Source: Cellulomonas fengjieae
Lineage (GTDB): Bacteria > Actinomycetota > Actinomycetes > Actinomycetales > Cellulomonadaceae
Reading direction: 5' to 3'
Assembly: GCF_018388465.1 (NCBI RefSeq)
Contig: NZ_CP074404.1
Location: forward strand, 372,001-436,000
Length of the DNA: 64,000 bases
A program made the translations under genes and the position numbers. A model generated the notes under the pieces. The model was not told the origin of the DNA. It saw only the letters and a program-made list of their open reading frames with translations, and ran no database searches. Shown here piece after piece: positions 17,269 to 49,258 of this stretch (position 1 is its first letter; every line of letters starts with the position of its first letter).

Positions 17269-17310
17269 CGTCCGAGCAGAGGAGGCCCAGGGCCTCCATC
17301 TGCTCGGACG
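17269..17310. repeat. Dispersed palindromic repeat, copy A (between xylA and xylB)
   Basis: Outer arms CGTCCGAGCAGA and TCTGCTCGGACG (12 bp, perfect) enclose a second perfect 7-bp stem (GGAGGCC/GGCCTCC, loop CAG) with a single bulged A. It belongs to a family of four copies in this window that share outer arms but differ inside. In the xylA-xylB transcript it would form a strong hairpin and could lower xylB expression. Confidence 0.85.
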
Positions 17311-17339
17311 CAGGGAGTGAGTGGTGCGGGTGGGACAGG

Positions 17340-18527
17340 TCAGCGGGCGCCGAGCGCGTGCTCGAGGGCCAGCTGGTTGAGGCGGACGAAGCCGAAGCCG
17401 CGCGCGCCGACCGCGTCGACGTCGAGGTCCTCGTACGCGGAGCGGTCGTTCAGCAGGTCGGACAGGGTCTCGCCCTCAGACAGCGTCGGCTGCGCGAGCT
17501 CGAGCACGCCGGCCTCCTCGAGCGCGGCCTGCACCTCGGGGTCGGCGCGGAAGGCCTGCGCGCGCTCCTTGAGCAGCAGGTACGTCGACATGTTCGCCGC
17601 GGCCGAGTCCCAGACGCCCTGGAAGTCCTCGGTGCGCGACGGCTTGTAGTCGAAGTGGCGCGGGCCGTCGTAGCGGGGGCCGCCCGACGGGAAGCCGTTC
17701 TCGACCAGGTCCACCGTGGCGAACGCGGAGAACAGGTCGCCGTGGCCGAACACCAGGTCCTGGTCGTACTTGATGGACCGCTGGCCGTTGAGGTCGATGT
17801 GGAAGAGCTTCTCCGCCCACAGCGCCTGCGCGATGCCCGACGTGTAGTTCAGGCCGGCCATCTGCTCGTGACCCGTCTCCGGGTTGAGGCCGACGATGTC
17901 GCCGTGCTCGAGCTTGGAGATGAACCCCAGCGCGTGCCCGACCGTGGGGAGCAGGATGTCGCCGCGGGGCTCGTTGGGCTTCGGCTCGATGGCGATCCGG
18001 AGGCCGTAGCCCTTCTCCTTGATGTACGCCGCGACGGTGTCGATGCCCTCGGCGTAGCGGTCGTGCGCGGCGTTGAGGTCCTTGGCGGAGTCGTACTCGG
18101 CGCCCTCGCGGCCGCCCCACATCACGAAGGTGTCGGCGCCGAGCTCGGCGGCCAGGTCGACGTTGCGGACGACCTTGCGCAGGCCGTAGCGGCGCACCCG
18201 GCGGTCGTTCGACGTGAACGCGCCGTCCTTGAAGATCGGGTGGCTGAACGTGTTGGTGGTGACCATCTCGACGGTGATGCCGGTCTCGTCGAGAGCGCCC
18301 TTGAAGCGGGCGAGGATCCGGTCACGCTCGGCGGCGTCCGAGCCGAACGGGACGACGTCGTCGTCGTGGAAGGTCACGTGCGCGGCGCCCAGCTCGGCCA
18401 GCTTGTGGACCGACTCGACCGGGTCCAGCCACGGGCGCGTGGCCGAGCCGAACTGGTCCTGGGCGTTCCAGCCGACCGTCCAGAGGCCGAACGAGAACTT
18501 GTCTGCACGGGTGGGCTGCGCTGCCAT
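17340..18527 (-). CDS. xylA: Xylose isomerase
   Basis: Interconverts D-xylose and D-xylulose. The 395-residue protein is the actinobacterial class I type, with W-T-V-G-W near the N-terminus, T-F-H-D-D-D-V-V-P (catalytic His), [16 protein letters not shown] (metal-binding Glu), G-H-E-Q-M, and F-H-I-D-L-N-G-Q with F-G-H-G-D (further metal ligands). The start at 18527 follows GAGGAG 7-9 bases upstream; an in-frame ATG 5 codons earlier lacks a site. It is the first gene of xylA-xylB, divergent from xylR. Its promoter and an adjoining inverted repeat fit control by that repressor. Confidence 0.97.
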
Positions 18528-18550
18528 CACGCGTCTCCTCATCGAGATGA

Positions 18551-18571
18551 ATCCGGTTTAGTTTGCCGGAT
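18551..18571. promoter_or_regulatory. Probable XylR operator
   Basis: An inverted repeat ATCCGG-N9-CCGGAT lies immediately downstream of the xylA -10 box, covering the expected start of transcription. The spacer TTTAGTTTG contains TTAGTTTG, which looks like a half-site of ROK-type xyl operators in Bacillus. Its position suggests repression by blocking initiation; the assignment to XylR is inference from adjacency. Confidence 0.6.
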
Positions 18572-18572
18572 G

Positions 18573-18601
18573 AATTTATCCCGTCCCGCCGGTAGGGTCA
18601 A
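18573..18601 (-). promoter_or_regulatory. xylA promoter
   Basis: On the minus strand TTGACC (18601-18596) and TAAATT (18578-18573) are 17 bases apart. The -35 box overlaps the -10 box of the divergent xylR gene, so the two promoters probably exclude each other. Confidence 0.75.
18593..18598 (+). promoter_or_regulatory. Leaderless -10 box of xylR
   Basis: GG-TAGGGT ends 6 bases before ATG 18605, and no ribosome site is present. It overlaps the -35 box of xylA. Confidence 0.6.
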
Positions 18602-18604
18602 GCC

Positions 18605-19819
18605 ATGCCGACGACCGAGCACCGCGACCCGTCGCGGGTGGCGCGGCAGGCGCAGATGCGCGACCAGAACCTCGGCGTGGCCCTGCGCGGCATCGTCGAC
18701 GCCCCCGCACCGGTGTCGCGCGCGCAGCTCGCCGCGGCGGAGGGGCTCGCCCGCGCCACCGTCTCCGGGCTCGTCGACCACCTCATCGAGGCGCGACTCG
18801 TGCGCGAGCTCGACCCCGCCCAGACGCAGCGCGCCGGGCGGCCCGCCGTCCCGCTCGCCCCCGCGCGGGGGACCGTCGCGGGCGTCGGGATGGAGATCAA
18901 CGTCGACTACCTCGGCGTCCGCGCGATCGACCTGTCCGGTGACGTCCTGGCCGAGCACGTGGAGCTGGACGACCTGCGGGGCGCCGACGCCGGCGCGGTC
19001 CTGGACCGGCTGGCCGCCCTGGCCGCCCCGGTGGTGCAGGACCTGCAGGCGCGGGGGATCCGCGTCGCCGGCACCGCGCTCGCGCTCCCCGGCCTGGTCG
19101 ACCGCGTCACCGGGCCGCTGCGCGTCGCCCCGAACCTCGGCTGGCGGGACGTCGACGTGGTGGCGGCCGTGTCCGCGCACCCCGCGCTGGCGGCCCTCCC
19201 GCCGCGCGTCGCCAACGAGGCCAACCTGGCCGCGCGCGCGGAGGCGCACGCCCGCGGCGGCTCGCCGAGCTTCGCCTACGTGTCCGGCGAGGTCGGCATC
19301 GGTGGCGCGATCGTGCTCGACGGCGAGATCGTCCCCGGCCGGCACGGCTGGAGCGGCGAGATCGGGCACATCGTCGTCGACGCCTTCCGCGGGCCGCGCG
19401 CGTCCGACGGCAGCCTGGAGGCGCTGGCCGGTCAGGACGCGATGCTGCGGGCGGCCGGGCTGCCGCAGACCGCCCGGCTCGACGCGCTGCTCGACGCGCT
19501 GGCCACCGGCGACGCACGCGCGTCCGCCGCCGTCGCCCAGGCTGCTCGGGCGCTCGGCGTCGCGCTCGCGTCGGTGGCCAACGTGGTCGACGTCGGCGAG
19601 GTGGTGCTCGGCGGCACCTTCGGCCAGCTGTTCGACCACGTGCACGACGAGGTGGCCGCCCGGCTCGACGAGCTGGTGATCTTCGCGCCCTGGTCGCCGC
19701 TGCAGGTCTCGCCCGCACGCGCCGGCCAGTACCCGGCGATGACCGGCGGCGCCCTCGCGGCCCTCGCCCGCCTCCTCGCCGACCCGGCCCAGTGGCTCCG
19801 CCAGCAACCCACCCCCTGA
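18605..19819 (+). CDS. xylR: ROK-family transcriptional repressor (probable XylR)
   Basis: A 404-residue regulator with an N-terminal winged helix-turn-helix (about 25-80: S-R-A-Q-L-A-A-A-E-G-L-A-R-A-T-V-S-G-L-V-D-H-L-I) and a C-terminal ROK sugar-kinase-like domain (about 95-390). The ROK part has V-G-I-G-G-A-I-V-L-D-G and G-W-S-G-E-I-G-H-I. The Cys-rich zinc motif that usually follows in ROK proteins is not evident. Divergent orientation to xylA-xylB and the shared 77-base control region support a role as xylose-responsive repressor. Ligand identity is inferred, not shown. Confidence 0.88.
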   Translation: MPTTEHRDPSRVARQAQMRDQNLGVALRGIVDAPAPVSRAQLAAAEGLARATVSGLVDHLIEARLVRELDPAQTQRAGRPAVPLAPARGTVAGVGMEINVDYLGVRAIDLSGDVLAEHVELDDLRGADAGAVLDRLAALAAPVVQDLQARGIRVAGTALALPGLVDRVTGPLRVAPNLGWRDVDVVAAVSAHPALAALPPRVANEANLAARAEAHARGGSPSFAYVSGEVGIGGAIVLDGEIVPGRHGWSGEIGHIVVDAFRGPRASDGSLEALAGQDAMLRAAGLPQTARLDALLDALATGDARASAAVAQAARALGVALASVANVVDVGEVVLGGTFGQLFDHVHDEVAARLDELVIFAPWSPLQVSPARAGQYPAMTGGALAALARLLADPAQWLRQQPTP

Positions 19820-19846
19820 CCCACCCACCCACGCGACGCTCGGCCG

Positions 19847-19852
19847 TAGGCT
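19847..19852 (+). promoter_or_regulatory. Leaderless -10 box of the lactonase gene
   Basis: TAGGCT lies 8 bases before GTG 19861, with no ribosome site between. The spacing is slightly longer than in the other leaderless genes here. Confidence 0.45.
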
Positions 19853-19860
19853 CCCTCGTC

Positions 19861-20928
19861 GTGAGCGCGCAGCAGAACCCCCTGTGGATCGGTACCTACC
19901 CCGCGGCCGGTGCCGGCACGCCCGTCGGCCAGGGGGAGGGGATCTGGCGGGTGGACCTCGACCCCGCGACCGGTGGGCTGAGCAGCGCGCGGCTGGTGGT
20001 CGAGACCCCGTCGCCGAGCTTCCTCGCGCAGCGCGGCTCGGTGCTGTACGCCGCCAACGAGCAGGCGGACGGCACGGTGAGCGCGTTCGACGTCGTCGGC
20101 GACTCGCTCCTGCACCGCGCCACTGTCCCGTCCGGCGGCGCCGACCCCTGCCACCTGCTGCTCGACGACGACGCGTCCGCGCTGCTCGTCGCCAACTACT
20201 CGTCGGGCACCCTCGCGGTCCTGCCGCTCGACGCGGACGGCGGGTTCGCGACGGGCGGCCCCGACCAGGTGCTCGGGCACACCGGCTCGGGTCCCGACGA
20301 GGGCCGTCAGGAGTCGTCGCACGCGCACTTCGTCGCCCTCGACCCCGGCGGGTTCGTGCTGGTGGTGGACCTGGGCACCGACGAGATCCGCCGCTACCGA
20401 CGCGCGGCCGGCCGGCTGGTCGAGGACGGCATCGCGGCCGTGCTGCCCGCCGGCACGGGCCCGCGTCACCTCGCGTTCGGCGCCGACGGCCGGTTCGCGT
20501 ACGTGGTGGGGGAGCTGGACGTGACGGTCCGCGTGCTGGCGTGGGCCGACGGCGCCGGCACGCTGGTGCAGACGCTGCCGGCCACCACGACGCCGGCCCG
20601 GTCGGGCGGCCGGGTGCTGCCGTCGCACGTCGCGCTGGACGGCGAGCGGCTGCTGGTGGGCGTGCGGGAGGCGGACGTGCTCGCACGGTTCACCGTCCGC
20701 GCCGACGGGCTGCTCGACCCGGTGGCAGACGACGCGTTGCCCGGCAGCTGGCCGCGGCACTTCGCGGTGGTCGACGGCTGGACGGTCGTCGCCGGGCAGA
20801 CGTCCGACGATCTCGCGGTGCTCGCCGCGGACGGCAGCGCCGTCGGTACGATCCCGATCCCCGCACCGGCCTGCATCGTCCTGGGCCACGGTGTCGGACA
20901 GGGGGAACGCCGTTCGTTGCAGGAGTGA
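19861..20928 (+). CDS. Lactonase family protein (6-phosphogluconolactonase-like beta-propeller)
   Basis: A 355-residue seven-bladed beta-propeller of the lactonase family (Pgl/YbhE type), which in E. coli hydrolyses 6-phosphogluconolactone. Recognisable blocks are W-I-G-T-Y, P-S-P-S-F-L-A, Y-A-A-N-E, G-G-A-D-P-C-H, L-L-V-A-N-Y-S-S-G-T, S-S-H-A-H-F-V, V-V-D-L-G-T-D, G-T-G-P-R-H-L-A-F and A-Y-V-V-G-E-L. No signal peptide is visible, so it should be cytosolic. It stands alone between xylR and the DGPF/sigma pair. The exact lactone is not determined; sugar-acid lactones from pentose oxidation are possible given the setting. Confidence 0.85.
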   Translation: MSAQQNPLWIGTYPAAGAGTPVGQGEGIWRVDLDPATGGLSSARLVVETPSPSFLAQRGSVLYAANEQADGTVSAFDVVGDSLLHRATVPSGGADPCHLLLDDDASALLVANYSSGTLAVLPLDADGGFATGGPDQVLGHTGSGPDEGRQESSHAHFVALDPGGFVLVVDLGTDEIRRYRRAAGRLVEDGIAAVLPAGTGPRHLAFGADGRFAYVVGELDVTVRVLAWADGAGTLVQTLPATTTPARSGGRVLPSHVALDGERLLVGVREADVLARFTVRADGLLDPVADDALPGSWPRHFAVVDGWTVVAGQTSDDLAVLAADGSAVGTIPIPAPACIVLGHGVGQGERRSLQE

Positions 20929-20968
20929 GCCGCCCACCAGGGGCGCCCCACCACAGGAGATGGTCCAC

Positions 20969-21298
20969 GTGCAGTACTTGTTCTCGGTGATCGACCACGC
21001 CACCGGCTCGGCCACCCCGGCCGAGATGGAGGCCATCGACGTGTTCAACGACCGGCTCGTGGCCGACGGCCACTGGGTGTTCGCGGCAGGGCTCGACGCG
21101 CCCGACACGGCCACGGTCGTGGACGGTCGGGGTGCGCAGGTGCTGGTCACCGACGGTCCCTTCGTGGAGACGAAGGAGCACGTCGCGGGCTTCTGGCTCA
21201 TCGAGGCTCCTGACCTCGACGTGGCGCTCGAGCTCGCCGCGGCGGGGTCGGCGGCGTGCAACCGCCGGGTCGAGGTCCGGCCGTTCCTGGCAAGGTGA
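20969..21298 (+). CDS. DGPF/YCII-family protein partnered with an ECF sigma factor
   Basis: A 109-residue YCII-related protein with the motif D-G-P-F-V-E-T-K-E (about 62-70), the DGPF signature. Such proteins are the standard genomic partner of ECF42-type sigma factors. The start is GTG 20969 because AGGAGA (20955-20960) lies 8 bases upstream; an ATG at 20960 is in frame but sits inside that ribosome site. The stop overlaps the start of the sigma-factor gene (GTGA). Biochemical role is unknown. The family is not an anti-sigma factor in sequence. Confidence 0.88.
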   Translation: MQYLFSVIDHATGSATPAEMEAIDVFNDRLVADGHWVFAAGLDAPDTATVVDGRGAQVLVTDGPFVETKEHVAGFWLIEAPDLDVALELAAAGSAACNRRVEVRPFLAR

Positions 21299-22560
21299 CC
21301 GCGATCGACGCCGCCCAGGCGATCTCCCGCGTCCACCGGGAGCAGTGGGCCCGGATCGTGGCGTCGCTGACGCGGCGGTTCGGTGACCTGGACATCGCCG
21401 AGGAGGCCGCCGCCGAGGCGTTCGCGAGCGCGGTCGAGCGGTGGCCCACCGACGGCGTGCCCCCGAACCCCGGCGCCTGGCTGACCACCACGGCCAACCG
21501 CAAGGCCATCGACCGGATCCGCCGCGAGAGCAAGCGCGAGGACAAGGAACGGGGGGCGCGGATGCTGTACGACGACGGCCCGCGCGAGCCCGTGGGTGCC
21601 GTCGACGACGAGCGCCTCCGGCTGATCTTCACGTGCTGCCACCCGGCGCTCGCGATGGAGAGCCGCGTGGCGCTGACGCTGCGCCTGGTCGGCGGGATGA
21701 CGGTGCCCGAGATCGCCCGGGCGTTCCTGGTGCGCGAGGCGGCGATGGGGCAGCGGATCACGCGCGCCAAGGCGAAGATCGCGGCGGCCGGCATCCCGTA
21801 CCGGGTGCCGCGGGCGCAGGACCTGCCGGCGCGGGTCACGGGCGTCCTGGCCGCACTGTTCCTCGTCTTCAACGAGGGCTACCTGGCCAGCGGCCCCGAC
21901 ACCGATCCCGTCCGCGCGGACCTGACCGCCGAGGCGATCCGGCTCACGAGGATGCTCCGGACGCTCCTGCCCCAGGACGGGGAGGTGGCCGGCCTGCTCG
22001 CGCTCATGCTGCTCACCGAGGCGCGGCGGCCGGCCCGGATCTCGGCGAGCGGCGAGCTGGTGACCCTCCATGAGCAGGATCGCGGCGCCTGGGACGCGGA
22101 GCTGATCGCCGAGGGGCACCGCCTGGTGCGCGAGCGGCTCGGCACCGGGGCGGCGCCGGGCCGCTACCAGGTCCTGGCCGCGATCAACGCGGTGCACACC
22201 TCCGCCCGCGACGCTCGCGACACCGACTGGTCGCAGGTCGTCGCCCTCTACGACCAGCTCGTCCGCATCGACCCGTCGCCGGTCGTCGCGCTCAACCGGG
22301 CGGTCGCGGTCGCGGAGCTGGACGGCCCGGACGTCGCGCTGGCCCTGGTCGACGGGCTGGGGACGCTGGTCGGGTACCACGCGTTCCACGCGACCCGCGC
22401 GGAGCTGCTGCGTCGGCTGGGCCGCGGCGCGGACGCCCGGGCGGCGTACGACGAGGCGATCGCGCTCGCGGGCAACACCGCGGAGATCGCGTACCTGAGG
22501 CGTCGCCGGGACCAGCTCGTACCGCCCGGCGCGCCCCGGAGGTCCGTTACGGAATCGTGA
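21295..22560 (+). CDS. ECF42-type RNA polymerase sigma factor with C-terminal TPR-like extension
   Basis: A 421-residue sigma-70 family protein. Region 2 covers about 10-80 (D-L-D-I-A-E-E-A-A-A-E-A-F-A-S-A, W-L-T-T-T-A-N-R-K-A-I-D-R-I-R-R-E). Region 4 covers about 120-175 (L-T-L-R-L-V-G-G-M-T-V-P-E-I-A-R-A-F-L-V, R-I-T-R-A-K). A helical extension of about 220 residues (F-N-E-G-Y-L-A-S-G, L-L-T-E-A-R-R-P-A-R, N-R-A-V-A-V-A-E-L-D-G-P) matches the tetratricopeptide-like C-terminus of ECF42 sigma factors, which is thought to regulate activity in place of an anti-sigma factor. It is translationally coupled to the DGPF gene. No target promoter could be identified. Confidence 0.9.
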   Translation: MTAIDAAQAISRVHREQWARIVASLTRRFGDLDIAEEAAAEAFASAVERWPTDGVPPNPGAWLTTTANRKAIDRIRRESKREDKERGARMLYDDGPREPVGAVDDERLRLIFTCCHPALAMESRVALTLRLVGGMTVPEIARAFLVREAAMGQRITRAKAKIAAAGIPYRVPRAQDLPARVTGVLAALFLVFNEGYLASGPDTDPVRADLTAEAIRLTRMLRTLLPQDGEVAGLLALMLLTEARRPARISASGELVTLHEQDRGAWDAELIAEGHRLVRERLGTGAAPGRYQVLAAINAVHTSARDARDTDWSQVVALYDQLVRIDPSPVVALNRAVAVAELDGPDVALALVDGLGTLVGYHAFHATRAELLRRLGRGADARAAYDEAIALAGNTAEIAYLRRRRDQLVPPGAPRRSVTES

Positions 22561-22568
22561 TCTAGGGG

Positions 22569-22586
22569 ACTTACCGCCCAGTAAGT
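22569..22586. promoter_or_regulatory. Inverted repeat upstream of the GH3 gene
   Basis: ACTTAC-N6-GTAAGT lies 86 bases before the GH3 start and 9 bases after the sigma-factor stop. The surrounding DNA is less GC-rich than average. It may be an operator for the GH3 gene; no similar element was found at the xylanase or xylA promoters. Confidence 0.4.
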
Positions 22587-22671
22587 GCTTGTGATTGTCT
22601 GGCGAGGCCGACCGCACGGAAAGGGCAACGAGGCCCGCGACCGAGGCCGGCCGCGTCTCGAGGGAGTGACC

Positions 22672-25600
22672 GTGCGCCGAGCCGACCGCCCGAACCCCGT
22701 CCCCGCCGGCCTCACCGCCCTGGCCCTGGTCATGCCGCTCGCGGTGGTCGCGCTCGCCACGCCGGCGCTCGCCGCACCGGGCGACCTCGCCCGGACGGGA
22801 ACGGCGACCGCCTCGCAGTTCCAGTCCGACGCCGACGGCACGTTCCCTCCGGACGCGGCCATCGACGGGGACCCGGCCACCCGGTGGGCCAGCGGCAACG
22901 GCCCCGACGAGGACGTCCCGTACGCCCAGTGGGTGCAGGTCGACCTCGGCGCGGAGGCGTCCGTCGACCACGTCGTGCTGGCGTGGGAGGCCGCGTTCGC
23001 CGCGGGCTACGAGGTACAGGTGGCGACGACGGCGCCCGACGACCCGGCGTCCTGGACCGCGGTGCACGCGGAGGAGGCGGGCGACGGCGGCACCGACGAC
23101 GTCACGTTCGCGGCCACCGACGCCCGGTACGTGCGGGTGCACATGACCCAGCGCACGAGCTTCGACTGGGACCCCGCCCGCCCCCACTGGTACGGCTACT
23201 CACTGTTCTCGTTCGAGGTCTACGGCACGGCGACGCAGACGGCGGTCGCCTTCGCCCGGTCCACCACCACCGTCCGCGCGGGTGAGACGGCCACCGTCCC
23301 GCTGATCCTGGCGTCCGCCGCGGAGGCCGACGCCACCGTCCGGGTGCGGTCCACCGGGGGCACGGGGGTGGCCGGGACCGACTACACCGCCGTCGACGAG
23401 ACCGTCACGTTCCCGGCCGGCAGCACCGAGGCGTCCGTGTCCGTGCCGACGGTCGACCACGGCCCGCTCGGCCAGGTGCGCACGGTCGAGCTGACCCTCT
23501 CCGAGCCGTCCGACGCCCTCGTGCTCGGCGGCCGGACCAGCACGTCGGTGACCATCGCGCCGCACGGCGAGCTGCCGGACGTCGGCGGCGTCACGGTGCT
23601 CGACGACTTCGAGTCCGGTGTCCCGGCCGGGTACACGACCTGGGGCGCCAGCGCGCCGGTCACCCCGGTGCTGAGCACCGGCCCGGTGGACCGGGGCGGC
23701 AACGGCCTGATCGCCACCGTCGGGGCTGAACCGGCCGCGGGGGACTGGTTCGGGTTCACGCACGACATCGCCGCCACCGACTGGTCGGCGCACGACGGCT
23801 TCACGTTCTGGTTCCTGGGCACCGGCGAGGGCGGAGAGCTCCGGTACGAGCTCAAGAGCGGCGGCCAGCTGTTCGAGCGGTCGGTCACGGACGACACCGC
23901 GGGCTGGCGCCAGGTCAGCGTGGCGTTCTCCCAGCTGCGCCTCAAGGGCACCCCGGCCTCGGACGCCCGGTTCGACCCGTCGGCGAGCACCGGCTTCGCG
24001 GTGACCCTGACCGACCTGGGCGCCGGGGCGTGGGCCTTCGACGACCTCGGGCTGTACGACCGCGTCAGCACGATCGAGGACGCCGAGGGCGAGGTGCCCC
24101 TGGCGGAGCCGGGCTCCACGGTCGGCATCTTCACGTGGGGCTCGGCGGCGGACCTGGTGCGCCTCGGGGTCACGGAGCAGGAGCGCGAGGGGCTACCGGC
24201 GGACAACCACGTGCTGTCCGGCGACTACCAGATCCCGTCGGGCGGGTGGGGCGGGTTCAGCCAGAACCTCGCGGCCGGCCAGGACTGGAGCTCGTTCCGC
24301 GGCATCCGGCTCGCCTGGTACGCGTCGCAGCCGACGCGCCCCGCGAGCCCGACCGCCGGCGACGACATCAAGGTCGAGCTCAAGGACGGCGGACCGGACG
24401 GCGAGCACTCCGAGGTGTGGGCCGCCACGTTCAAGGACAACTGGTCCAGCGACGGCAGCCGCTGGAAGATCGTCGACCTCCCGTTCTCGCAGTTCACGCT
24501 GAGCGGGTACCAGCCGGGTGACGCGGCGACGCGCAACGGCACCCTCGACCTGACGTCGGCCTGGGGCTACGCGATCACGATGGTGCCCGGCACGGCGACG
24601 ACCGTCTCCTGGGCCGTCGACGACGTCCAGCTGTACGGCTCCGCGGTCCCCGCGCCGACGGCCACGGTGGACTCCGACGACGTGGTCCTGGTCGACCCCG
24701 GCGCGACGGCGCAGGTCCCGGTGGTCCTGACGACGACCGACGGCCAGCCGCTTCCCGCGGACGTCACCGTCGACTACGCGAACGGTGCCGGCACCGCCGT
24801 GGCCGGCACGCACTACGACGCGTTCAGCGGCACGCTCACGTTCCCCGCGGGGGCCGCGTCCGGTTCGGCGCAGACGATCGAGGTGGTGACGCACGCGACC
24901 GACGCGGTCGACGACGCCCGCACGCTCACGGTCGACCTGAGCGCCTCGGGCGCCGCCGTCGGCACCACCCCGCGGGTCGTCCTCAACGCCGTGGGCGCCC
25001 CCTACCTGGACGCGTCCCGGCCCACCGACGAGCGCGTCGACGACCTGCTGGGCCGGATGACGCTCGCCGAGAAGGTCGGCCAGATGACCCAGGCGGAGCG
25101 CCTCGGCCTGCAGTCGCCCACGCAGATCGCGGACCTCGGCCTCGGCTCCGTGCTCTCGGGCGGCGGCTCCGTGCCGGCCCAGAACACGGCCGCCGGCTGG
25201 GCGGACATGGTGGACGCGTTCCAGCGCCAGGCCCTGTCCACGCGCCTCCAGATCCCGTTGATCTACGGCGTCGACGCGGTGCACGGCCACAACAACGTGG
25301 TCGGCGCGACGATCTTCCCGCACAACGAGGGGCTCGGGGCCGCGCGCGACGCCGACCTCGTCGAGCAGGTGCAGCGCACCACGGCGCAGGAGGTCCGCGC
25401 GACCGGCGTGCCGTGGACGTTCGCGCCGTGCCTGTGCGTCACGCGTGACGAGCGGTGGGGCCGGTCCTACGAGTCCTTCGGCGAGGACCCGGCGCTCGTG
25501 ACGGCGATGGCGGGCGCCGCGGTGGTCGGGCTGCAGGGCACGGACCCGAGCGACCTGTCCGGGCCGGACAAGGTGCTGGCCACCGCCAAGCACTGGGTGG

Positions 25601-29168: not shown

Positions 29169-29221
29169 CCGTGGACCGGACGTCCCAGGCCGGTCGGCGC
29201 GCGCTGATGCAGGATGGACCC

Positions 29222-29962
29222 ATGACCTACACCCTCGTGCTGCTCCGCCACGGCGAGAGCGAGTGGAATGCGAAGAACCTCTTCACCGGCTGGGTCGACG
29301 TGCCCCTCTCGGAGAAGGGTGTCGCGGAGGCCAAGCGCGGCGGGACGCTGCTGACCGACGCGGGCGTGCTGCCCGACGTCGTCCACACGTCGCTGCTGCG
29401 CCGCGCCATCACCACCGCCAACCTCGCGCTCGACGCCGCCGACCGGCACTGGATCCCTGTCAAGCGCTCCTGGCGCCTGAACGAGCGGCACTACGGCGCT
29501 CTGCAGGGCAAGGACAAGAAGCAGACGCTCGAGGAGTACGGCGAGGAGCAGTTCATGCTCTGGCGCCGCTCCTACGACGTCCCGCCGCCGCCCATCGAGC
29601 TGGGCTCGGAGTACTCGCAGGACTCGGACCCGCGCTACGCCGGTGAGCCGATCCCGCGGGCGGAGGCCCTCGAGCAGGTCCTCGTCCGCGCGCTGCCGTA
29701 CTGGGAGTCGGAGATCGTCCCCGACCTGCAGTCCGGCAAGACCGTCCTGGTCGCGGCGCACGGCAACTCGATCCGCGCCCTGGTCAAGCACCTGGACGAC
29801 GTGGACAGCGCGACGATCGCCGGGATCAACATCCCCACCGGCATCCCGCTGCTCTACACGATCGACGAGGAGACGCTGAAGCCCACCAACCCGGGCGGCA
29901 CGTACCTCGACCCCGAGGCCGCCGCGGAGGCCATCAAGGCCGTCGCCAACCAGGGCCGCTGA
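29222..29962 (+). CDS. gpmA: 2,3-bisphosphoglycerate-dependent phosphoglycerate mutase
   Basis: Interconverts 3- and 2-phosphoglycerate in glycolysis. The 246-residue protein contains [10 protein letters not shown] (phospho-histidine), [25 protein letters not shown] and [10 protein letters not shown]. Length is normal. ATG 29222 is preceded by AGGA about 8 bases upstream; the same stretch reads CAGGAT-N6-ATG, so a leaderless start is also conceivable. It is followed by palindromic repeat copy B, which separates it from convergent phoU. Confidence 0.96.
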
Positions 29963-29976: not shown

Positions 29977-30020
29977 ACGTCCGAGCAGAAGTGGGCCGGG
30001 ACCCACATCTGCTCGGACGT
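29977..30020. repeat. Dispersed palindromic repeat, copy B (gpmA/phoU convergence)
   Basis: Arms ACGTCCGAGCAGA and TCTGCTCGGACGT (13 bp, perfect) enclose GTGGG/CCCAC and a 6-base loop, with opposed unpaired A residues. It sits 14 bases after the gpmA stop and 8 bases before the phoU stop, so it may work as a bidirectional terminator. It shares its outer arms with copies A, C and D. Confidence 0.85.
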
Positions 30021-30028: not shown

Positions 30029-30694
30029 TCAGGGGGCGGTGCGGTCCAGCTCCGGGCGGGGGGAGCCCGTCACCAGGTAGGTCACCCGTCGGGCGACCGA
30101 GACGGCGTGGTCGCCGAACCGCTCGTAGTACCGACCGAGCAGCGTGACGTCGATCGTCTCCTGCGTGGTGCCGGACCACGAGCCGCCGAGCAGCGCCGCG
30201 AAGGTGTCCTCGTGCAGCTCGTCGAGCAGGTCGTCGTCCTGCTCGATGCTCTCGGCCAGCAGGACGTCCCGGGTGCTCAGCAGGGTCGTCGTGCGGCGGC
30301 CGACCCGGACGGCGGCGTCGTGCATCTCCGCGAACGTGCCGGAGAGCGCCTGCGGCACGGCGTTGCGCGGGTAGCGGCCGCGCGCCACCTGCGCCACGTG
30401 CCGCGCCAGGTCGCCCATGCGCTCGAGCGAGGCGCTCATGCGCAGCGCAGACACCACGATCCGCAGGTCGGTGGCCACGGGCTGCTGCTGGGCCAGGAGC
30501 AGGACGCACCGCTCGTCGAGGTCCCGCTCGATCGCGTCGATGGCCAGGTCGTCGGCGATCACCGACTCCGCGAGCGCGAGGTCGGCCGTCAGCAGCGCGA
30601 TGCCGGCGTTGGAGATGGCGTGCTCGACCCGCCCGCTCATCGTGACCAGGTCCTCGCCCAGCTGGTGCAGCTCGGCGTCGAAGATCTCCCGCAT
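30029..30694 (-). CDS. phoU: PhoU phosphate-signalling protein
   Basis: A regulator linking the Pst transporter to the SenX3/PhoR sensor. The 221-residue all-helical protein has two PhoU repeats: M-R-E-I-F-D-A-E-L-H-Q-L-G-E-D, with L-R-I-V-V-S-A-L-R-M-S-A-S-L-E-R-M-G-D-L-A (about 77-97), and L-G-R-Y-Y-E-R-F-G-D-H-A-V (about 184-196). The E-R-M-G-D and E-R-F-G-D-H segments carry the metal-binding acidic residues. A GGGAG ribosome site precedes ATG 30694. It is transcribed away from the pst genes but has its own PHO box at 30750-30782. Confidence 0.95.
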   Translation of the reverse strand: MREIFDAELHQLGEDLVTMSGRVEHAISNAGIALLTADLALAESVIADDLAIDAIERDLDERCVLLLAQQQPVATDLRIVVSALRMSASLERMGDLARHVAQVARGRYPRNAVPQALSGTFAEMHDAAVRVGRRTTTLLSTRDVLLAESIEQDDDLLDELHEDTFAALLGGSWSGTTQETIDVTLLGRYYERFGDHAVSVARRVTYLVTGSPRPELDRTAP

Positions 30695-41165: not shown

Positions 41166-41171
41166 CCCCGC

Positions 41172-42499: not shown

Positions 42500-42557
42500 C
42501 GTTCGCCGGTCCAGGACCAGAGTGCAACCGACCCCAGCGGCCTCGTCACCCCGTCGA

Positions 42558-42575
42558 GTGAGCGCCTGCGCTCAC
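42558..42575. promoter_or_regulatory. Palindrome GTGAGCGC-CT-GCGCTCAC at the GH127 stop
   Basis: Perfect 8-bp arms around 2 bases cover the GH127 stop codon and lie about 60 bases upstream of the oxidoreductase start. The shape suits either a LacI-family operator or a tight hairpin. No second copy was found. Confidence 0.4.
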
Positions 42576-44464
42576 GCCACGGGCAGCCACACCCGCATCG
42601 TCGACGGCCCGCGGTTGGCCCAGTCGTGGTAGGCGGTCAGCGGGACGTCCGTGCGGGTCACGGGCTGCTCCGGGTGCGCCGACCCGTACGGCCAGGCGAC
42701 ATCGGCCGGTGCCGTCGTGCGCAGCGTCGCGAGGACCCGCCCGTCCACCTCCCGCAGCCCCGCGCCGACGTCGAGCCGCACACCCGAGACGTCGGCGTGC
42801 CCCGCCAGGTCGACGGACTCCAGGCACAGGACCTCCGGGCCGCGCTCGACGGCGACGCACCCGCGGACGGCGTCGATGCGCGGGTCGGGGTGGGAGATGC
42901 GGGGGTGCATCGGCAGGTGGAGCTCGACCACGTCGCCGGCGGCGAACCGCCGTCGGACGGACACGGTCCCCGGGGGTGCCGGCTGGGCGGCGTCGGGCGT
43001 GCGCAGGGTCGCTCCGCGCGCCCAGGCGGGGACGCGCAGCGTGAGCGTCCAGGGCCGGTCCTCTGCGCTGACCACCGTCGCCCGGACCACCCCCTCGCGG
43101 GGGTAGTCGGTCTCGACGTCGAGCTCGACGCGGCGACCGTCGGCCAGGCGGGTGCGGATGCGGGCGGGGGCGTACTGGTGCAGCTGGAGGCCGTCGTCGT
43201 CGGTGGTCGCCACGTACGCCGCGAGGCTCGCCAGCGTGCGGGCGACGTTGGGCGGGCAGCAGGAGACCGCGAACCACGGCGCCCGCAGCGACGACGACGC
43301 CCGGGGGCTCGGCGCGTCCGCGGGTGGCACCGTCCCCGGGACCCGCTGGTGCAGCGTGTTCGTGTAGTAGTACGCGGTTCCCTCGTGCGACGGCGAGGTG
43401 GCGACCACGTTGTAGAGCGTCCGCTCGATCAGGTCGGCGTACCGCGGCAGGCCCTGGGCCAGCAGCAGGCGCCACGAGAACATCACGGAGCCGACGCCCG
43501 CGCAGGTCTCGCTGTAGGCACGGTCGGCGGGCAGGACGAAGTCCTCGCCGAACGACTCGCCCTCGTGCTGCGAGCCCTGCCCGCCCGTGACGTAGGTGCG
43601 GCGGGCGACGGTGTTCTCCCACTGCGTCGTCAGCGCCGCGAGCAGCCCCTCGTCCGCGGTCTCCACGGCGACGTCGACCGCCCCCGCCGCCAGGTAGTTC
43701 GCCCGCACGGCATGCCCTCGCAGGACCGTCGCGTCCCGCACCGGCACGTCGTCCTGGTAGTACGCGCGGCCCAGGCCGACGTCCGCCAGCGTGCCCGTGC
43801 CGCGGCGCTCGACGAACAGCGCGGCCTGCTCGACGTAGCGGCGGGCGGTCGTCCGGCCCAGCTCGACCAGCGCGGGCTCGACCTCCGGGTGCCCGCAGAC
43901 CGACGCGACGCCGCCCGGCCCGAACGTCTCGACCACGTGGTCCGCCGCGCGCAGGGCGATCCCCAGCAGGCCGTCGTCGGCGTCGGGACGCGTCCGCGCC
44001 CGGGCCACCGCCGCCTGGAACAGGTGGCCGTAGCAGTAGAGCTCGTGGCCCCACTCGAGGTCGCTGTAGCGGGGGCGCTGACCGGGCCGGCCGAAGTTCG
44101 TGTTGAGGTAGCCGTCGGGCTCCTGGGCGGCGCCCACCCTGCCGACGATCGCGCGGAACCGGGCGTCGAGGACCTCGTCGTCGGTGCGGCCGACCTCCCA
44201 GGCCATGGCCTCGAGCAGCTTGTAGACCTCGGAGTCGGAGAACTCCCGTCCGGCGCGGCGACCGGCCGACGTCCCGGCCGCGGCCGCGTCGAAGTTGCCG
44301 ATCCAGCCCTCCCGCTCCATCCAGTGCTCGATGTGCCCGAGGCTCGCGGTGGCGTTGACGGCCTGCCGCTGCGCCCAGAAGCCACCGGTGATCTGCACCT
44401 CGTCGAGCCCGAGCGGACGCAGTGCGCCGCGTGAGGGGGCGACGGGCGTCGCGGTCCGGTCCAT
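42572..44464 (-). CDS. GH127-family beta-L-arabinofuranosidase
   Basis: A 630-residue cytosolic glycosidase expected to release L-arabinofuranose from beta-linked arabino-oligosaccharides. Family blocks: I-T-G-G-F-W-A-Q-R, D-G-Y-L-N-T, W-G-H-E-L-Y-C-Y-G-H-L, Y-V-T-G-G-Q-G-S, S-E-T-C-A (Glu and Cys) and F-A-V-S-C-C-P-P-N. The last two supply the Glu plus three Cys that bind zinc in this family, with one Cys as nucleophile. No signal peptide, so short oligosaccharides must be imported first. ATG 44464 follows AGGACGG; an upstream in-frame start at 44500 lacks a site. Lies 78 bases after the FAD oxidase gene on the same strand. Confidence 0.9.
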   Translation of the reverse strand: MDRTATPVAPSRGALRPLGLDEVQITGGFWAQRQAVNATASLGHIEHWMEREGWIGNFDAAAAGTSAGRRAGREFSDSEVYKLLEAMAWEVGRTDDEVLDARFRAIVGRVGAAQEPDGYLNTNFGRPGQRPRYSDLEWGHELYCYGHLFQAAVARARTRPDADDGLLGIALRAADHVVETFGPGGVASVCGHPEVEPALVELGRTTARRYVEQAALFVERRGTGTLADVGLGRAYYQDDVPVRDATVLRGHAVRANYLAAGAVDVAVETADEGLLAALTTQWENTVARRTYVTGGQGSQHEGESFGEDFVLPADRAYSETCAGVGSVMFSWRLLLAQGLPRYADLIERTLYNVVATSPSHEGTAYYYTNTLHQRVPGTVPPADAPSPRASSSLRAPWFAVSCCPPNVARTLASLAAYVATTDDDGLQLHQYAPARIRTRLADGRRVELDVETDYPREGVVRATVVSAEDRPWTLTLRVPAWARGATLRTPDAAQPAPPGTVSVRRRFAAGDVVELHLPMHPRISHPDPRIDAVRGCVAVERGPEVLCLESVDLAGHADVSGVRLDVGAGLREVDGRVLATLRTTAPADVAWPYGSAHPEQPVTRTDVPLTAYHDWANRGPSTMRVWLPVA

Positions 44465-44542
44465 CGTCCGTCCTGTCGGCAGGGGGAACGTCGTGCGCAC
44501 CAGCCTGCCGCCCGGGCGCGGGTTCCGCAGGTCGGTCCCGAG

Positions 44543-45892
44543 CTACCCCGCGTCGCGCGGACTGCCCAGCAGCCGGTCCAGGTAGGGGTTGCTGAAGACC
44601 CCGTCGGGGTCCGCCTGCGCCCGGACGCGCTGGGCGTCGGCGAACCGCGGGTACAGCTCGGCCAGCCGCTCGGCCTCGAGCCAGTGCATCTTGCCCCAGT
44701 GCGGGCGCCCGTCCACCTGGGCGACGATCCGCTCGACCGCGTCGAAGTAGCGCGCGTACGGCAGCCGGACGTACTGGTGCACCGCGATGTAGGCCGTGTC
44801 GCGACCGTGCGCCGTGGAGAGCCACAGGTCGTCCGCCGCGGCGAACCGCACCTCGAGGGGGAACGGGAGAAGCTCCCCGCTCGACTCGATCCAGGAGACG
44901 ATCTCGCGCAGCACCGGCGCCACCTGGTCACGTGGCAGTGCGTACTCCATCTCGCGGAACCGGACCCGGCGTGACGAGACGAAGACGGAGGCGGACGGCG
45001 CGGTGTACCGGCGCCGGCTGATCGTCCGGGTGGCGATGTCGTTGACCGACCGGGTGAGCGACGGCGCCAGGGTCGCGATCGAGTTGGCCAGCGCGAAGGC
45101 GCCGTTCGCGATCACCTCGTCCTCCAGCCACCCGCGCACCCGGGGCAGCGGCAGCTCGACGTCGTCGGCCACCCGGTTGTTGCGCTTGGTGAGCGTGCGG
45201 TCGGTGTGCGGGAACCAGTAGAACTCGAAGTGGTCGTTGGCCTCGACGAGCCCGTCCGGCCCGTCGAGCTGCTCCAGGACGTCGCCGAGCAGCCACGGCT
45301 CCTCGCGAGCCTCGAGGCGGTACGCCGGGACGACCTCGAGCGTCACGGTGCCGAGCACGCCGACGGTGCCCAGGCCGAGGCGGGCCAGCTCGAACAGCTC
45401 GGGCTCCTGCGTCGCGGAGGTCTGCACGACGTCGCCGGTCGCCGTCACCAGCTCGGCACCGACGACCTGCGTCGCGAGCCCGCCGAGACGCGCGCCGGTG
45501 CCGTGGGTCCCGGTCGAGATCGCCCCGGCCAGGGTCTGCTTGTCGATGTCCCCGAGGTTGCGCATGGCCAGGCCGCGCTCCGCGAGCAGCGCGTTGAGCG
45601 CACCCAGCCGGATGCCGGCGCCGACCGTGACGTGCGTCGAGCCGTCGGCCTGTGACACGACACGCTCAAGAACGTCCAAGGCGTCCACACGAATGTGCAC
45701 GCCGTCCGTCGTGGCCACCGGGGTGAAGGAGTGCCCGCTGCCGACCGCCCGTACGCGCAGCCCGTCGGCCACCGCCCGACGGACGTCCGCGGAGAGTTCG
45801 TGCAGGTCACGAGGGTGGCAGACGCGCTGCGGGGTGGCGGTGGCGGTGCGCGCCCAGTTGCGCCAGACACGGGTGGCCAGCGGTTGTCCCAT
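44543..45892 (-). CDS. FAD-linked D-arabinono-1,4-lactone oxidase / alditol oxidase family protein
   Basis: A 449-residue VAO-family flavoprotein. The N-terminal FAD domain (about 14-190) has V-R-A-V-G-S-G-H-S-F-T-P-V (His likely attaches FAD covalently) and T-L-A-G-A-I-S-T-G-T-H-G-T-G. The C-terminal ALO domain contains H-F-E-F-Y-W-F-P-H-T and ends H-W-G-K-M-H and D-P-D-G-V-F-S-N-P-Y-L. Relatives oxidise aldonolactones or alditols such as xylitol with O2; the substrate here is not determined. ATG 45892 begins opposite a tetR gene across a 167-base control region, so it is probably under that repressor. Confidence 0.87.
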   Translation of the reverse strand: MGQPLATRVWRNWARTATATPQRVCHPRDLHELSADVRRAVADGLRVRAVGSGHSFTPVATTDGVHIRVDALDVLERVVSQADGSTHVTVGAGIRLGALNALLAERGLAMRNLGDIDKQTLAGAISTGTHGTGARLGGLATQVVGAELVTATGDVVQTSATQEPELFELARLGLGTVGVLGTVTLEVVPAYRLEAREEPWLLGDVLEQLDGPDGLVEANDHFEFYWFPHTDRTLTKRNNRVADDVELPLPRVRGWLEDEVIANGAFALANSIATLAPSLTRSVNDIATRTISRRRYTAPSASVFVSSRRVRFREMEYALPRDQVAPVLREIVSWIESSGELLPFPLEVRFAAADDLWLSTAHGRDTAYIAVHQYVRLPYARYFDAVERIVAQVDGRPHWGKMHWLEAERLAELYPRFADAQRVRAQADPDGVFSNPYLDRLLGSPRDAG

Positions 45893-45948
45893 AATGCCGA
45901 ACCCTCGTCCTGGGCACTCGTCCAAGTCAAGTGCCACATTTCCTTGAC

Positions 45949-45977
45949 TATCGTGACAAGTGCTATTGAAATGTGCA
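45949..45977 (+). promoter_or_regulatory. tetR promoter with overlapping repeats in the divergent control region
   Basis: TTGACT and TGAAAT are 17 bases apart starting at 45953. Partial inverted repeats surround them: CTTG...CAAG across 45952-45969, and GTGCCACATTTC/GAAATGTGCAC around the whole region. These are candidate TetR binding sites; exact operator limits cannot be fixed by eye. Confidence 0.45.
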
Positions 45978-46059
45978 CCTGGGGGAGGCGGGGTCCTACC
46001 CATCGCGGCCGTGCCGGTCGCTGGTGGGAGGTCGTCGCCAAGAGGGAGGGATCGCCGTC

Positions 46060-46689
46060 ATGAACCGTTTGCCTGTGGCCGAGAGGCGCGAGCAGCTCAT
46101 CGAGGCTGCGCTCGCCGTCGCAAGCAGGGACGGCATCGACGCCGCCACCGTGCGTGCCATCGCCGCCGAGGCGGGGGTCTCGCTCGGGGTCGTGCACTAC
46201 TGCTTCCAGGACAAGGACGAGCTGCTGCGCGCGATGGCCCACGCCATCACGACCGCCAACCTGGAACGCAGCCTGGGCGAGGCGCTCGCCGAAGCCCAGA
46301 CCGCCGAGTCGGTGATCGAGCGCGCCCTGGACGCCCTCTGGACCGGGATCCGCGAGTCGCGCGGCCCGCAGCTGCTCAGCTACGAGCTGACCACGTCCTC
46401 GCTGCGCCACCCCGAGCTCAACCAGGTCGCCATCGAGCAGTACCGGGGCCAGTGGGCGGCCGCCGAGCACGTGCTGGAGCTCGTCGAGCGGTCGGCGCAG
46501 GTCAGCTGGTCCGTACCCCGCGGTGCCCTCGCACGGACCGTCGTCGCCATGATCGACGGCTACTCGCTGGCCTGGCTCGTGGACGGTGACAGCGAGGCGG
46601 CGCTGTCGGGCCTGCAGCGGATCGGTCGGTACCTGGCCACGGTCACGGTGCCGGCCCCGGTGGCGGACACCGCCGCGACCCCCGCGTGA
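46060..46689 (+). CDS. TetR-family transcriptional regulator
   Basis: A 209-residue regulator. The N-terminal HTH (about 8-55) has R-R-E-Q-L-I-E-A-A-L-A-V, A-T-V-R-A-I-A-A-E-A-G-V-S-L-G-V-V-H-Y-C-F-Q-D-K-D-E-L-L. The C-terminal part is a typical ligand-binding helical domain. A GAGGGAGGG ribosome site precedes ATG 46060. Its stop overlaps the start of the MFS gene, and it is divergent from the FAD oxidase gene. It therefore likely controls both the tetR-MFS-PLP operon and the oxidase. Ligand unknown. Confidence 0.92.
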   Translation: MNRLPVAERREQLIEAALAVASRDGIDAATVRAIAAEAGVSLGVVHYCFQDKDELLRAMAHAITTANLERSLGEALAEAQTAESVIERALDALWTGIRESRGPQLLSYELTTSSLRHPELNQVAIEQYRGQWAAAEHVLELVERSAQVSWSVPRGALARTVVAMIDGYSLAWLVDGDSEAALSGLQRIGRYLATVTVPAPVADTAATPA

Positions 46690-47936
46690 CCGCGACCCTG
46701 TCCGAGACGGCCCGACGGGCGCGCGTCGCGGCGTCGAGCGGGTTCGCCGCCCAGGGCTTCGTGTACGCCACGCTGCTGACCAACCTCAACAGGTTCAAGG
46801 ACCGGTACGGCGTCGACGACGGGCAGATCACGCTCGTGGTCCTCGGCGTCTGCGTCATGGCGGCGCTCGGCACCCTGGTGGCCGACCGGGTGGCACGGAC
46901 CGAGAGCGGGAGCCGCGCCGTGCTCGGTGTGGGGCTGCTCGTCATCGCGGCGGCGGTCGTCGTCGCCTCCGTCGCGCCGGGCTTCGGCGTGCTGGTGGCC
47001 GGGTTCCTGGTCTTCGGCGTCGGCATGGGCATGGTGGACGCGGGCACGAACATGCAGGCCGTGGCCATCCAGCACGAGTACGGGCGGTCGCTGCTCACCG
47101 GGTTCTACGCGTCGTGGTCGGTGGGCGGCATCATCGGCGCCGTGCTCGTCGCGGTCACCGCCGGTCGGGTGCCCGACGAGCCCGTCGCGGTGGCCACCCT
47201 GACCGGCGCGCTCGTCGCGGGCGCCGCGTCCGTGCTCGTCCTGGCTTCCGGATGGCGGGGCGCGACCGTCGCGGTGCGCGCGGACGGCGTCGCCAGGCCT
47301 GACGAGGCCCTCGCCTTCCCCGCCGCGGACGGGAGCAAGCCCCTGGTCCCGTGGGGAGCCGTGGTCCTGCTCGGGCTCGGCGTGGTCGCGTTCTACGTCG
47401 CCGACACCGCGATCTCCACGTGGAGCACGATCTACCTCGACGACGTCATGCTCGCCTCCGCATCCTTCGCGCCCCTCGGCTACGCCGCGTACCTCACCAC
47501 CACGCTCGGCTCCCGGCTCGCCGGGGACCCGCTGGTGCGCCGGTGGGGACGGGTCGTCGTCCTGCGCGGTGGCGCGCTCGTCGGTGCCGCCGGGCTGGTG
47601 CTCGTCGTCGCGGCGCCGGGACAGTGGGCCGCGCTCGCCGGCTTCGCGGTGGCCGGTGCGGGCCTCGGTGTCATCGCGCCGCTGTGCTTCTCCGCGGCGG
47701 GCGACGTCGCTCCGGGGCACGCGGACGCGGTGGTCGCGCGGCTCAACGTCTTCAACTATGTGGGCGCGGTGCTCGGTGGCGTGCTCGTGGGCGCGATCGG
47801 CAGCACGTCGTCGCTCGGGCTCGGGTTCATCGTCCCGATCGTCCTCGTGGTGGCCGTGGCGGTCCTGGCCGGCCGGTTCGGTGTGGCGCGACGGGTCGGG
47901 ACGCCCGCGACGGCCGGCTCAGGAGCAGGTGGGTGA
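46686..47936 (+). CDS. Major facilitator superfamily transporter
   Basis: A 416-residue transporter with about twelve membrane spans. Visible features include G-Q-I-T-L-V-V-L-G-V, A-D-R-V-A-R-T in the loop after span 2, the strongly conserved G-M-V-D-A-G-T-N-M-Q-A-V segment, a Gly-rich span F-Y-A-S-W-S-V-G-G-I-I-G, and a central cytoplasmic loop (about 175-220). The D-A-x-x-N pattern is common in FucP/YbjJ-like transporters. GTG 46686 overlaps the tetR stop, and its own stop overlaps the PLP-enzyme start. Substrate or direction is unknown. Confidence 0.88.
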   Translation: MTATLSETARRARVAASSGFAAQGFVYATLLTNLNRFKDRYGVDDGQITLVVLGVCVMAALGTLVADRVARTESGSRAVLGVGLLVIAAAVVVASVAPGFGVLVAGFLVFGVGMGMVDAGTNMQAVAIQHEYGRSLLTGFYASWSVGGIIGAVLVAVTAGRVPDEPVAVATLTGALVAGAASVLVLASGWRGATVAVRADGVARPDEALAFPAADGSKPLVPWGAVVLLGLGVVAFYVADTAISTWSTIYLDDVMLASASFAPLGYAAYLTTTLGSRLAGDPLVRRWGRVVVLRGGALVGAAGLVLVVAAPGQWAALAGFAVAGAGLGVIAPLCFSAAGDVAPGHADAVVARLNVFNYVGAVLGGVLVGAIGSTSSLGLGFIVPIVLVVAVAVLAGRFGVARRVGTPATAGSGAGG

Positions 47937-49117
47937 CGCGCACCCTGGGTGAGCGCCTCGACCAGGCGACACGGGGCCTGGCTGCGCCGCTGGCCGTCCT
48001 GGACGCCGACGCCCTGGACGCCAACGCCGCCGACCTCGTGCGGCGCGCCGCCGGCACGCCGATCCGGGTCGCCAGCAAGTCCGTCCGCGTGCGCGGCGTC
48101 CTCGAGCGGGTGCTGGAGCTGCCGGGGTTCGCCGGGGTGATGGGGTACTCGGTGCGCGAGGCGCTCTGGCTCGTCGGTCAGGGGTTCGACGACGTCCTCG
48201 TGGGCTACCCGAGCGTCGACACCGGCGCGCTGGACGCGCTCGCCGCGGACCCCGTCGCCGCCGCCGCGGTGACGCTGATGGTCGACGACCTGTCCCAGGT
48301 GGAGTTGGCCGCGCGCGCCGCCCGGGGCCACGGCACGACGCTGCGGCTGTGCCTCGACGTCGACGCGTCCCTGAGGCTGCGGCTCGGTCCGGTGACCGCG
48401 CACCTGGGTGTGCGGCGCTCGCCGGTCCACTCGGCCGTCGACGCCGCGCGGCTCGCCTCGGCGGTCGCCGACCGGCCCGGCGTCGACGTGGTCGGCGTCA
48501 TGTTCTACGAGGCCCAGGTGGCGGGGCTGCCCGACTCGTCACCGGCCGTGCGGGCGGTCAAGCGACTCTCCATCCGAGACCTGGCCGTCCGCCGCGCCGC
48601 GGTGGTGACCGCCGTACAGGACGCGGTGGGCCACGAGCTGTCGCTGATCAACTCCGGGGGCTCCGGCTCGGTGGGCACGAGCGCTGCCGACCCCGTGGTC
48701 ACCGAGGTCACCGCGGGCTCCGGACTGTTCGTCCCCACGCTGTTCGACGCGTACCGCTCCTTCACGCCCCGGCCGGCCGCGTTCTTCGGGCTCGACGTCG
48801 TGCGCGTCCCCGGCCCCGGGTTCGCGACCGTCTTCGGCGGCGGGTACATCGCCTCCGGTCCGGCCACCACGTCTCGTCAGCCGAGGCCGGTGTGGCCGTC
48901 CGGGTTGGCGCTGACGGGCCGCGAGGGTGCCGGGGAGGTGCAGACGCCGCTGCGGCTGTCCGGTGGAGCGGACCTGCGCGTCGGGGACCGGGTCTGGTTC
49001 CGGCACGCCAAGTCGGGCGAGGTCATGGAGCGCTTCGAGCAGGTGCACCTGGTCCGCGGCACCACGATCGAGGCCACGTTCCCCACCTACCGCGGCGAGC
49101 ACCAGACCTTCGGCTGA
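47933..49117 (+). CDS. Type-III PLP enzyme (alanine racemase N-terminal / D-threonine aldolase-like)
   Basis: A 394-residue fold-III PLP enzyme. The N-terminal barrel begins P-L-A-V-L-D-A-D-A-L-D-A-N with the PLP lysine in R-V-A-S-K-S-V-R. Later blocks are D-V-D-A-S-L-R, V-G-V-M-F-Y-E-A-Q-V and N-S-G-G-S-G-S-V. A D-serine-dehydratase-like C-terminal domain follows (P-A-A-F-F-G-L-D-V, G-G-G-Y-I-A-S-G, V-W-F-R-H-A-K-S-G-E). Relatives cleave or deaminate beta-hydroxy D-amino acids; the exact reaction is unknown. GTG 47933 follows AGGAG and overlaps the MFS stop. Together with tetR, MFS and the divergent FAD oxidase it forms a compact cluster. Confidence 0.82.
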   Translation: MTRTLGERLDQATRGLAAPLAVLDADALDANAADLVRRAAGTPIRVASKSVRVRGVLERVLELPGFAGVMGYSVREALWLVGQGFDDVLVGYPSVDTGALDALAADPVAAAAVTLMVDDLSQVELAARAARGHGTTLRLCLDVDASLRLRLGPVTAHLGVRRSPVHSAVDAARLASAVADRPGVDVVGVMFYEAQVAGLPDSSPAVRAVKRLSIRDLAVRRAAVVTAVQDAVGHELSLINSGGSGSVGTSAADPVVTEVTAGSGLFVPTLFDAYRSFTPRPAAFFGLDVVRVPGPGFATVFGGGYIASGPATTSRQPRPVWPSGLALTGREGAGEVQTPLRLSGGADLRVGDRVWFRHAKSGEVMERFEQVHLVRGTTIEATFPTYRGEHQTFG

Positions 49118-49153
49118 CCTCGACCCAGCCGTGCGCCGCGCGGAACCCCGTAG

Positions 49154-49195
49154 CGTCCGAGCAGATGGAGGTCATGGCCTACCTCTGCTCGGACG
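49154..49195. repeat. Dispersed palindromic repeat, copy C
   Basis: Arms CGTCCGAGCAGA/TCTGCTCGGACG enclose GGAGG paired with CCT(A)CC, one A bulged, around a 6-base loop. It starts 37 bases after the PLP-enzyme stop and is followed 63 bases later by identical copy D. Confidence 0.85.
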
Positions 49196-49216
49196 TTGCG
49201 CATGGGGCTCCCGTAG

Positions 49217-49258
49217 CGTCCGAGCAGATGGAGGTCATGGCCTACCTCTGCTCGGACG
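49217..49258. repeat. Dispersed palindromic repeat, copy D
   Basis: Identical to copy C over 49 bases (49211-49259 versus 49148-49196), including the flanking CCGTAG. It ends 37 bases before cysS and 25 bases before the cysS -10 box, so it borders the cysS promoter. Confidence 0.85.

Follow-up and report, generated by a model that had tools for sequence, protein, structure and literature searches.

Dispersed REP-like palindromes of Cellulomonas and the probable exchange of their subfamilies at fixed sites

Four palindromes and their neighbouring genes

The window analysed here is a stretch of 64 kb (positions 372001-436000) of a Cellulomonas genome that consists of one contig of 3,989,908 bases, hereafter the reference genome (G000). 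It contains four palindromic elements of 42 bp, which share the frame CGTCCGAGCAGA-N18-TCTGCTCGGACG (Table 1). All four have the same 12-base arms, with three versions of the 18 bases between the arms, and the last two elements are identical. This bears out a first-pass annotation of the window, which had described four such palindromes with identical arms and three inner sequences; its coordinates also hold for three of the elements, the second being one base narrower at each end than the 29977-30020 assigned there.

Table 1. Palindromic elements of the window and the genes that flank them. The names xylA and xylB follow the first-pass annotation, which gave them from the sequence alone.
Feature	Window position	Genome position	Strand	Description
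Element 1	17269..17310	C1:389269-389310	.	Subfamily A; single copy between FGGY kinase (xylB) and xylose-isomerase-like (xylA) genes
Element 2	29978..30019	C1:401978-402019	.	Subfamily A; single copy in the gap where the histidine-phosphatase-family (gpmA) and phoU genes converge
Element 3	49154..49195	C1:421154-421195	.	Subfamily A; first of tandem pair upstream of cysS
Spacer of cysS pair	49196..49216		.	21 bp; start-to-start pitch 63 bp
Element 4	49217..49258	C1:421217-421258	.	Subfamily A; identical to element 3
FGGY carbohydrate kinase gene, flank	15839..17242		-	PF00370, PF02782
Xylose-isomerase-like TIM barrel gene, flank	17340..18542		-	PF01261
Histidine phosphatase family gene, flank	29216..29962		+	PF00300; start assumed
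phoU gene, flank	30029..30694		-	PF01895
Cysteinyl-tRNA synthetase gene, flank	49295..50740		+	PF01406

All eight exact arm 12-mers of the window lie inside these palindromes and the arm word was not found singly there, which argues against pairs of DNA uptake sequences. No Rfam family reaches its gathering score at the elements, the only matches being sub-threshold ones at the cysS pair. Elsewhere the window holds an msiK RNA (RF01747, 64.9 bits; 54284-54342, minus strand) and a tRNA gene (61743-61816, plus strand), both unrelated to the palindromes.

Distribution, placement, pairing and spacing

In the reference genome the 11-base arms are exact in 16 copies, and the number rises to 30 when up to three mismatches are allowed and the inner length is fixed at 18, as compared with 0 for a reversed-pattern control; the genome-wide count, which the first-pass annotation had set as a check, is above chance. 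The flanks of these 30 copies often lengthen the palindrome with GCAAC...GTTGC ends. The exact arm family is nearly confined to this genome: a match with at most two mismatches occurs in two of the 58 relatives searched (the reference genome counted), and exact 10-base arms occur in two of 396 genomes of the order.

A wider superfamily has the fixed frame CGTCCG-N30-CGGACG, which matches 41 places in the reference genome and 81 places, listed in part, in its relative G437 (control, one place each). Arms that pair by eye are present in 35 of the 41 matches, the six with unpaired arms having been set aside; together with two degenerate copies (207324 and 352880) this gives about 37 elements at 25 sites. 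Subfamilies, which we defined by regular expressions, differ in their inner sequence and are termed A (AGCAGATG), B (CACTCG) and C (CACATTCGGTCG, AGGAAGTGAGCGC and kin); several of them coexist within single genomes. Across 221 genomes of the family, the extended frame ACGTCCG-N30-CGGACGT occurs at least nine times in 13 genomes and at most four times in the other 208. As far as searched, the superfamily is specific to one Cellulomonas group (12 of the 13 genomes) and one genome of another genus of the same family (G178). The latter holds 24 frame copies, four other listed genomes of its genus having 0 or 1, and its copies were possibly transferred or arose independently.

Most copies are imperfect palindromes just behind genes, with dozens per genome in some Cellulomonas. 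Placement was examined in 400 kb each of the reference genome and G437, with gene calls from a home-made codon-usage script that missed ppa in the reference genome. Measured from a stop codon, the closest copy is about 10-40 bp away at the majority of sites. Convergent gaps are enriched (11 of 28 sites as against 52 of 348 gaps, P 0.0009) and divergent gaps depleted (2 of 28 as against 98 of 348, P 0.008), the 28 sites including three chance one-mismatch hits and one of the divergent assignments reflecting a gene missed by the script. The four elements of the window lie outside predicted genes, as the first-pass annotation had stated, but this is not general: another pair of the reference genome (C1:352880-352984, copies 352880 and 352943) lies in frame within an FAD-linked oxidase ORF of 1013 aa, where it occupies a linker that joins conserved parts and is itself poorly conserved relative to G437. 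This arrangement recalls the palindromic elements of Rickettsia. On the scale of the chromosome, the 1.34 Mb (C1:1324650-2664911) opposite dnaA, a gene that we take from its sequence to lie at position 292, hold none of the 25 sites (P 0.0013 for an empty stretch this large if placement were uniform). Eight loci were inspected for a mobile gene enclosed by two neighbouring elements; the intervening genes there look ordinary, going by the names that we presume for them from their sequences. Judged by eye, the asymmetric halves are of mixed orientation with respect to the upstream gene.

Folding of three window elements on both strands gave stable hairpins in all six folds (-29.6 to -40.4 kcal/mol, z -6.0 to -8.2). 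The first-pass annotation had further claimed that the changing centres remain self-complementary and had taken such covarying inner stems as proof of selection on the hairpin, a view that is mostly rejected here; one of its own inner pairs, GGAGG/CCTACC, contains a mismatch. When covariation is tabulated over 29 distinct copies, mainly of subfamily A, the two most variable inner positions are complementary in seven copies each, where shuffling expects 11.1 and 10.3, and one position, beside the loop, pairs above expectation (22 of 29 as against 17.4, P 0.03).

A larger set comprised 27, 21 and 34 elements of subfamilies A, B and C (82 of 103 rows, the 21 mixed, unclassified or background rows being left out), with positions numbered from CGTCCG; its P values are optimistic, since the elements are related to each other. 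Here subfamily C is anti-complementary at the variable positions 15 (7 of 34, P 0.005) and 16 (6 of 34, P 0.002), and pairing is enriched at its arm positions 7, 8, 12 and 13 (P 0.0004, 0.04, 0.007 and 0.0001). In subfamily A the mismatch signal at positions 15 and 16 is weak (P 0.07 and 0.45) and pairing is enriched at positions 12, 14 and 20 (P 0.008, 0.005 and 0.008); in subfamily B the signal at positions 15-16 is absent. The central position is depleted of pairing in all three subfamilies (P 0.012, 0.032 and 0.018). From the sequences, a hairpin that carries a mid-stem mismatch is suggested, not proven.

Neighbouring elements keep a narrow spacing. Among 43 distinct neighbouring pairs within 200 bp, which were taken from loci fetched around elements and include orthologous pairs of different genomes, 38 have a pitch of 61-63 bp (63 bp, n=25; 62 bp, n=11; 61 bp, n=2); the others stand at 40 bp (n=3, one of them with a poorly pairing copy), 102 bp (n=1) and 124 bp (n=1). 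The pitch is held despite spacer sequences that differ between loci, and pairs can mix subfamilies, as at 3381264/3381327/3381389 of the reference genome. At the cysS site of seven genomes, the first element listed lies 8 to 54 bp from the upstream gene, and the pitch is still 61-63 bp; in G437 a distance of 124 bp separates the listed copies of this site, which have degenerate copies around them, and in G022 four copies follow each other at 62, 61 and 62 bp. Some pairs look like recent tandem duplications that include the flank. The pitch of about six helical turns might perhaps reflect protein contact between neighbours at the DNA level, and as a pitch held over differing spacers it predicts a complex that can be tested. 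At the ppx sites (L169, L170 and L182) elements abut at 40 bp pitch with common CGGACGTCCG ends, and the neighbour always belongs to a different subfamily.

Turnover at fixed sites

Of the 11 sites that the reference genome has between 330 and 730 kb, nine have an element at the matching position in G437, a relative of about 90% identity. Both flanks are in order at seven of the shared sites; the other two (350611 and 401978) share the same upstream gene only, the other flank lying about 0.7 kb away. None of the nine carries the same subfamily in both genomes. The best identity over the inner 30 bases averages 0.42 (0.33-0.60) at the same site, which is no better than the 0.43 obtained for different sites of the two genomes; the averages within one genome are 0.74 for the sites of the reference genome and 0.55 for those of G437. 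Four sites compared across 13 genomes, with flanking genes 84-90% identical to those of G000, give a similar picture: G000 and the others agree at the same site by 0.42 (26 comparisons), the background being 0.49 (298 comparisons) and the identity within G000 0.70-0.83.

At the xylose site seven genomes (G438, G030, G022, G442, G018, G024 and G437) retain almost the same sequence as far as CGTCCG; six of them carry subfamily B and one, G438, a shortened palindrome, where G000 carries A; G095 and G005 have subfamily B with other flanks. Subfamily B thus persists at this site in eight other genomes, with inner identities of 0.53-0.93 among them, which indicates that turnover is uneven; replacement in place is clearest in the reference genome. 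The shortened palindrome of G438 (L199) has AGCAGAG arms like those of subfamily A, a subfamily that is otherwise absent from this genome among the matches listed.

We consider concerted evolution of a REP/REPIN-like family, in which sites are kept and each palindrome is replaced as a whole, including both of its arms, by the subfamily of the resident genome, the best explanation, with a probability of about 0.6. The copying process would leave the flanks alone and spread one subfamily over the existing sites of a genome; candidate routes are ectopic gene conversion or an equivalent process, transposase- or ssDNA-templated, that uses the shared outer ends. Higgins and colleagues are said to have proposed gene conversion of REPs and homogenisation of dispersed palindromes in 1988. 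The recognised unit could conceivably be the folded hairpin with its mid-stem mismatch, and the position behind genes hints at a REP-like effect on the host at transcript ends. We speculate, more tentatively, that an active, homing-like and RAYT-independent process overwrites the palindromes of fixed sites with the sequence of a resident template that is anchored on their common outer ends, the subfamily switching within about 10% divergence and the six-turn paired sites serving as the substrate of a nucleoprotein complex.

The exchange of subfamilies at fixed sites, which was not visible to the first-pass annotation, is the main point. It has long been asked whether transposition, selection or gene conversion keeps REP-like repeats alike within a genome; since sites, flanks and pair spacing are kept while the palindrome is exchanged, the copying step can here be told apart from insertion and located on a tree.

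The main alternative to copying in place is that ordinary non-autonomous mobile elements are repeatedly lost and re-inserted at preferred spots behind genes, with no conversion. Patchy presence speaks for it: the cysS site is empty in G030 and G005, the ppx1 site in G030, G438, G005, G020 and others, and the sites 352943 and 462355 of the reference genome have no element at the corresponding place in G437. These empty sites indicate that gain and loss also occur, and the abundance of a different subfamily in each genome would likewise follow from re-insertion. This account is nevertheless improbable in view of the unchanged flanks of the xylose site, which reach to the element edge across subfamilies, and of the high share of sites common to the reference genome and G437. 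Moreover, genome pairs with a flank identity of at least 0.925 still have similar elements at the same site (0.72, n=30), as expected from inheritance in place, inspection by eye showed no evident target duplication and the reference genome has no match to the Y1 transposase profile PF01797.

Less likely still are double-stranded, operator-like sites of a dimeric DNA-binding protein, either a regulator or a nucleoid protein, with half-sites that vary independently. The lack of complementarity at positions 15-16, the pitch of about six turns and the empty arc opposite dnaA would all suit such sites, yet a single genome, and even a single pair, can contain subfamilies whose half-sites are unrelated, the elements lie behind genes and not before them, and the arms of subfamily C pair more than chance allows. 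An equally small chance is given to intrinsic terminators that act in both directions in a GC-rich organism and are copied on account of that function, a reading that the strong hairpins, the sites behind stop codons and the enriched convergent gaps recommend and that is unlikely given the absence of a T-run after the hairpin (0 sites in two stretches scanned, elements included, a weak test as the scan was empty throughout both), a pitch held to 1-2 bp that is useless to a terminator, conserved outer letters and a subfamily structure that termination does not require, one element between the genes of a presumed single operon (xylA-xylB) and one pair inside a gene.

Comparison with known repeat systems

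A literature search of titles and the beginnings of abstracts, with arm strings included and few subscription journals covered, returned no paper on this palindrome family. The comparisons below draw on parts of the papers cited. The description of REPs as dispersed, extragenic, imperfect palindromes in many copies applies to the elements and sites of the reference genome, with the exception of the intragenic pair. From the first-pass annotation the dispersed REP-like family, the 3'-intergenic position and the stable hairpins are retained, and most of the covarying stems are given up; the REP-associated tyrosine transposase (RAYT) that it had named as something to look for was not found in the reference genome, nor, in the weak test described above, was a terminator with a T-run found at the elements. 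A search of the reference genome with the RAYT profile PF01797 found 0 matches, and five of 14 control genomes were positive. In the flanks of the 30 copies GTAG is not a constant foot, standing directly before the palindrome only at the cysS pair and being replaced elsewhere by GCAAC or similar. Given that neither a Y1 transposase in the reference genome nor a constant GTAG or a T-run at the elements was found, the family corresponds to no classical REP system and to no intrinsic terminator of the ordinary type. Since a REP-like system occurs here in an actinobacterial group, with no RAYT in the genome tested, the missing mover becomes a concrete target.

The GTAG REPs, BIMEs and REPINs that are associated with RAYTs are alike in being short imperfect palindromes in many copies behind genes, with tandem clusters that include flanks (PMC8266576; PMC3116915). 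The enzyme of E. coli requires a conserved stem mismatch (PMC8266576; PMC3116915), and a signal of this type (group 2) is significant in subfamily C, weak in A and absent in B. Unlike these systems, the Cellulomonas palindromes have no constant GTAG foot and no PF01797 match in the reference genome, and the whole palindrome is exchanged at fixed sites.

REPs in general lie mostly between co-directional and convergent genes (PMC3733652). The CGTC REPs likewise begin with CGTC and are reported, in the part of the study drawn on here, to lack a dedicated transposase (Di Nocera et al., 2013; PMC3733652). Their CGTC is unpaired, with stems of 8-9 bp and loops of 4-5, whereas in Cellulomonas CGTC pairs with GACG in a stem of at least 12 bp; Actinobacteria are not among the five phyla given for CGTC REPs in that part of the study (PMC3733652). 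Changes of REP class in related genomes are known as orthoswitch (Nunvar et al., 2013; PMC3686654). In that model, as far as the sections used here describe it, the old REPs persist and degenerate during the spread of new ones, partial replacement being only mentioned, and Cellulomonas differs in showing replacement at corresponding sites (PMC3686654). Altogether, the palindromes would add to this known kind a further REP-like system, the mover and function of which we infer.
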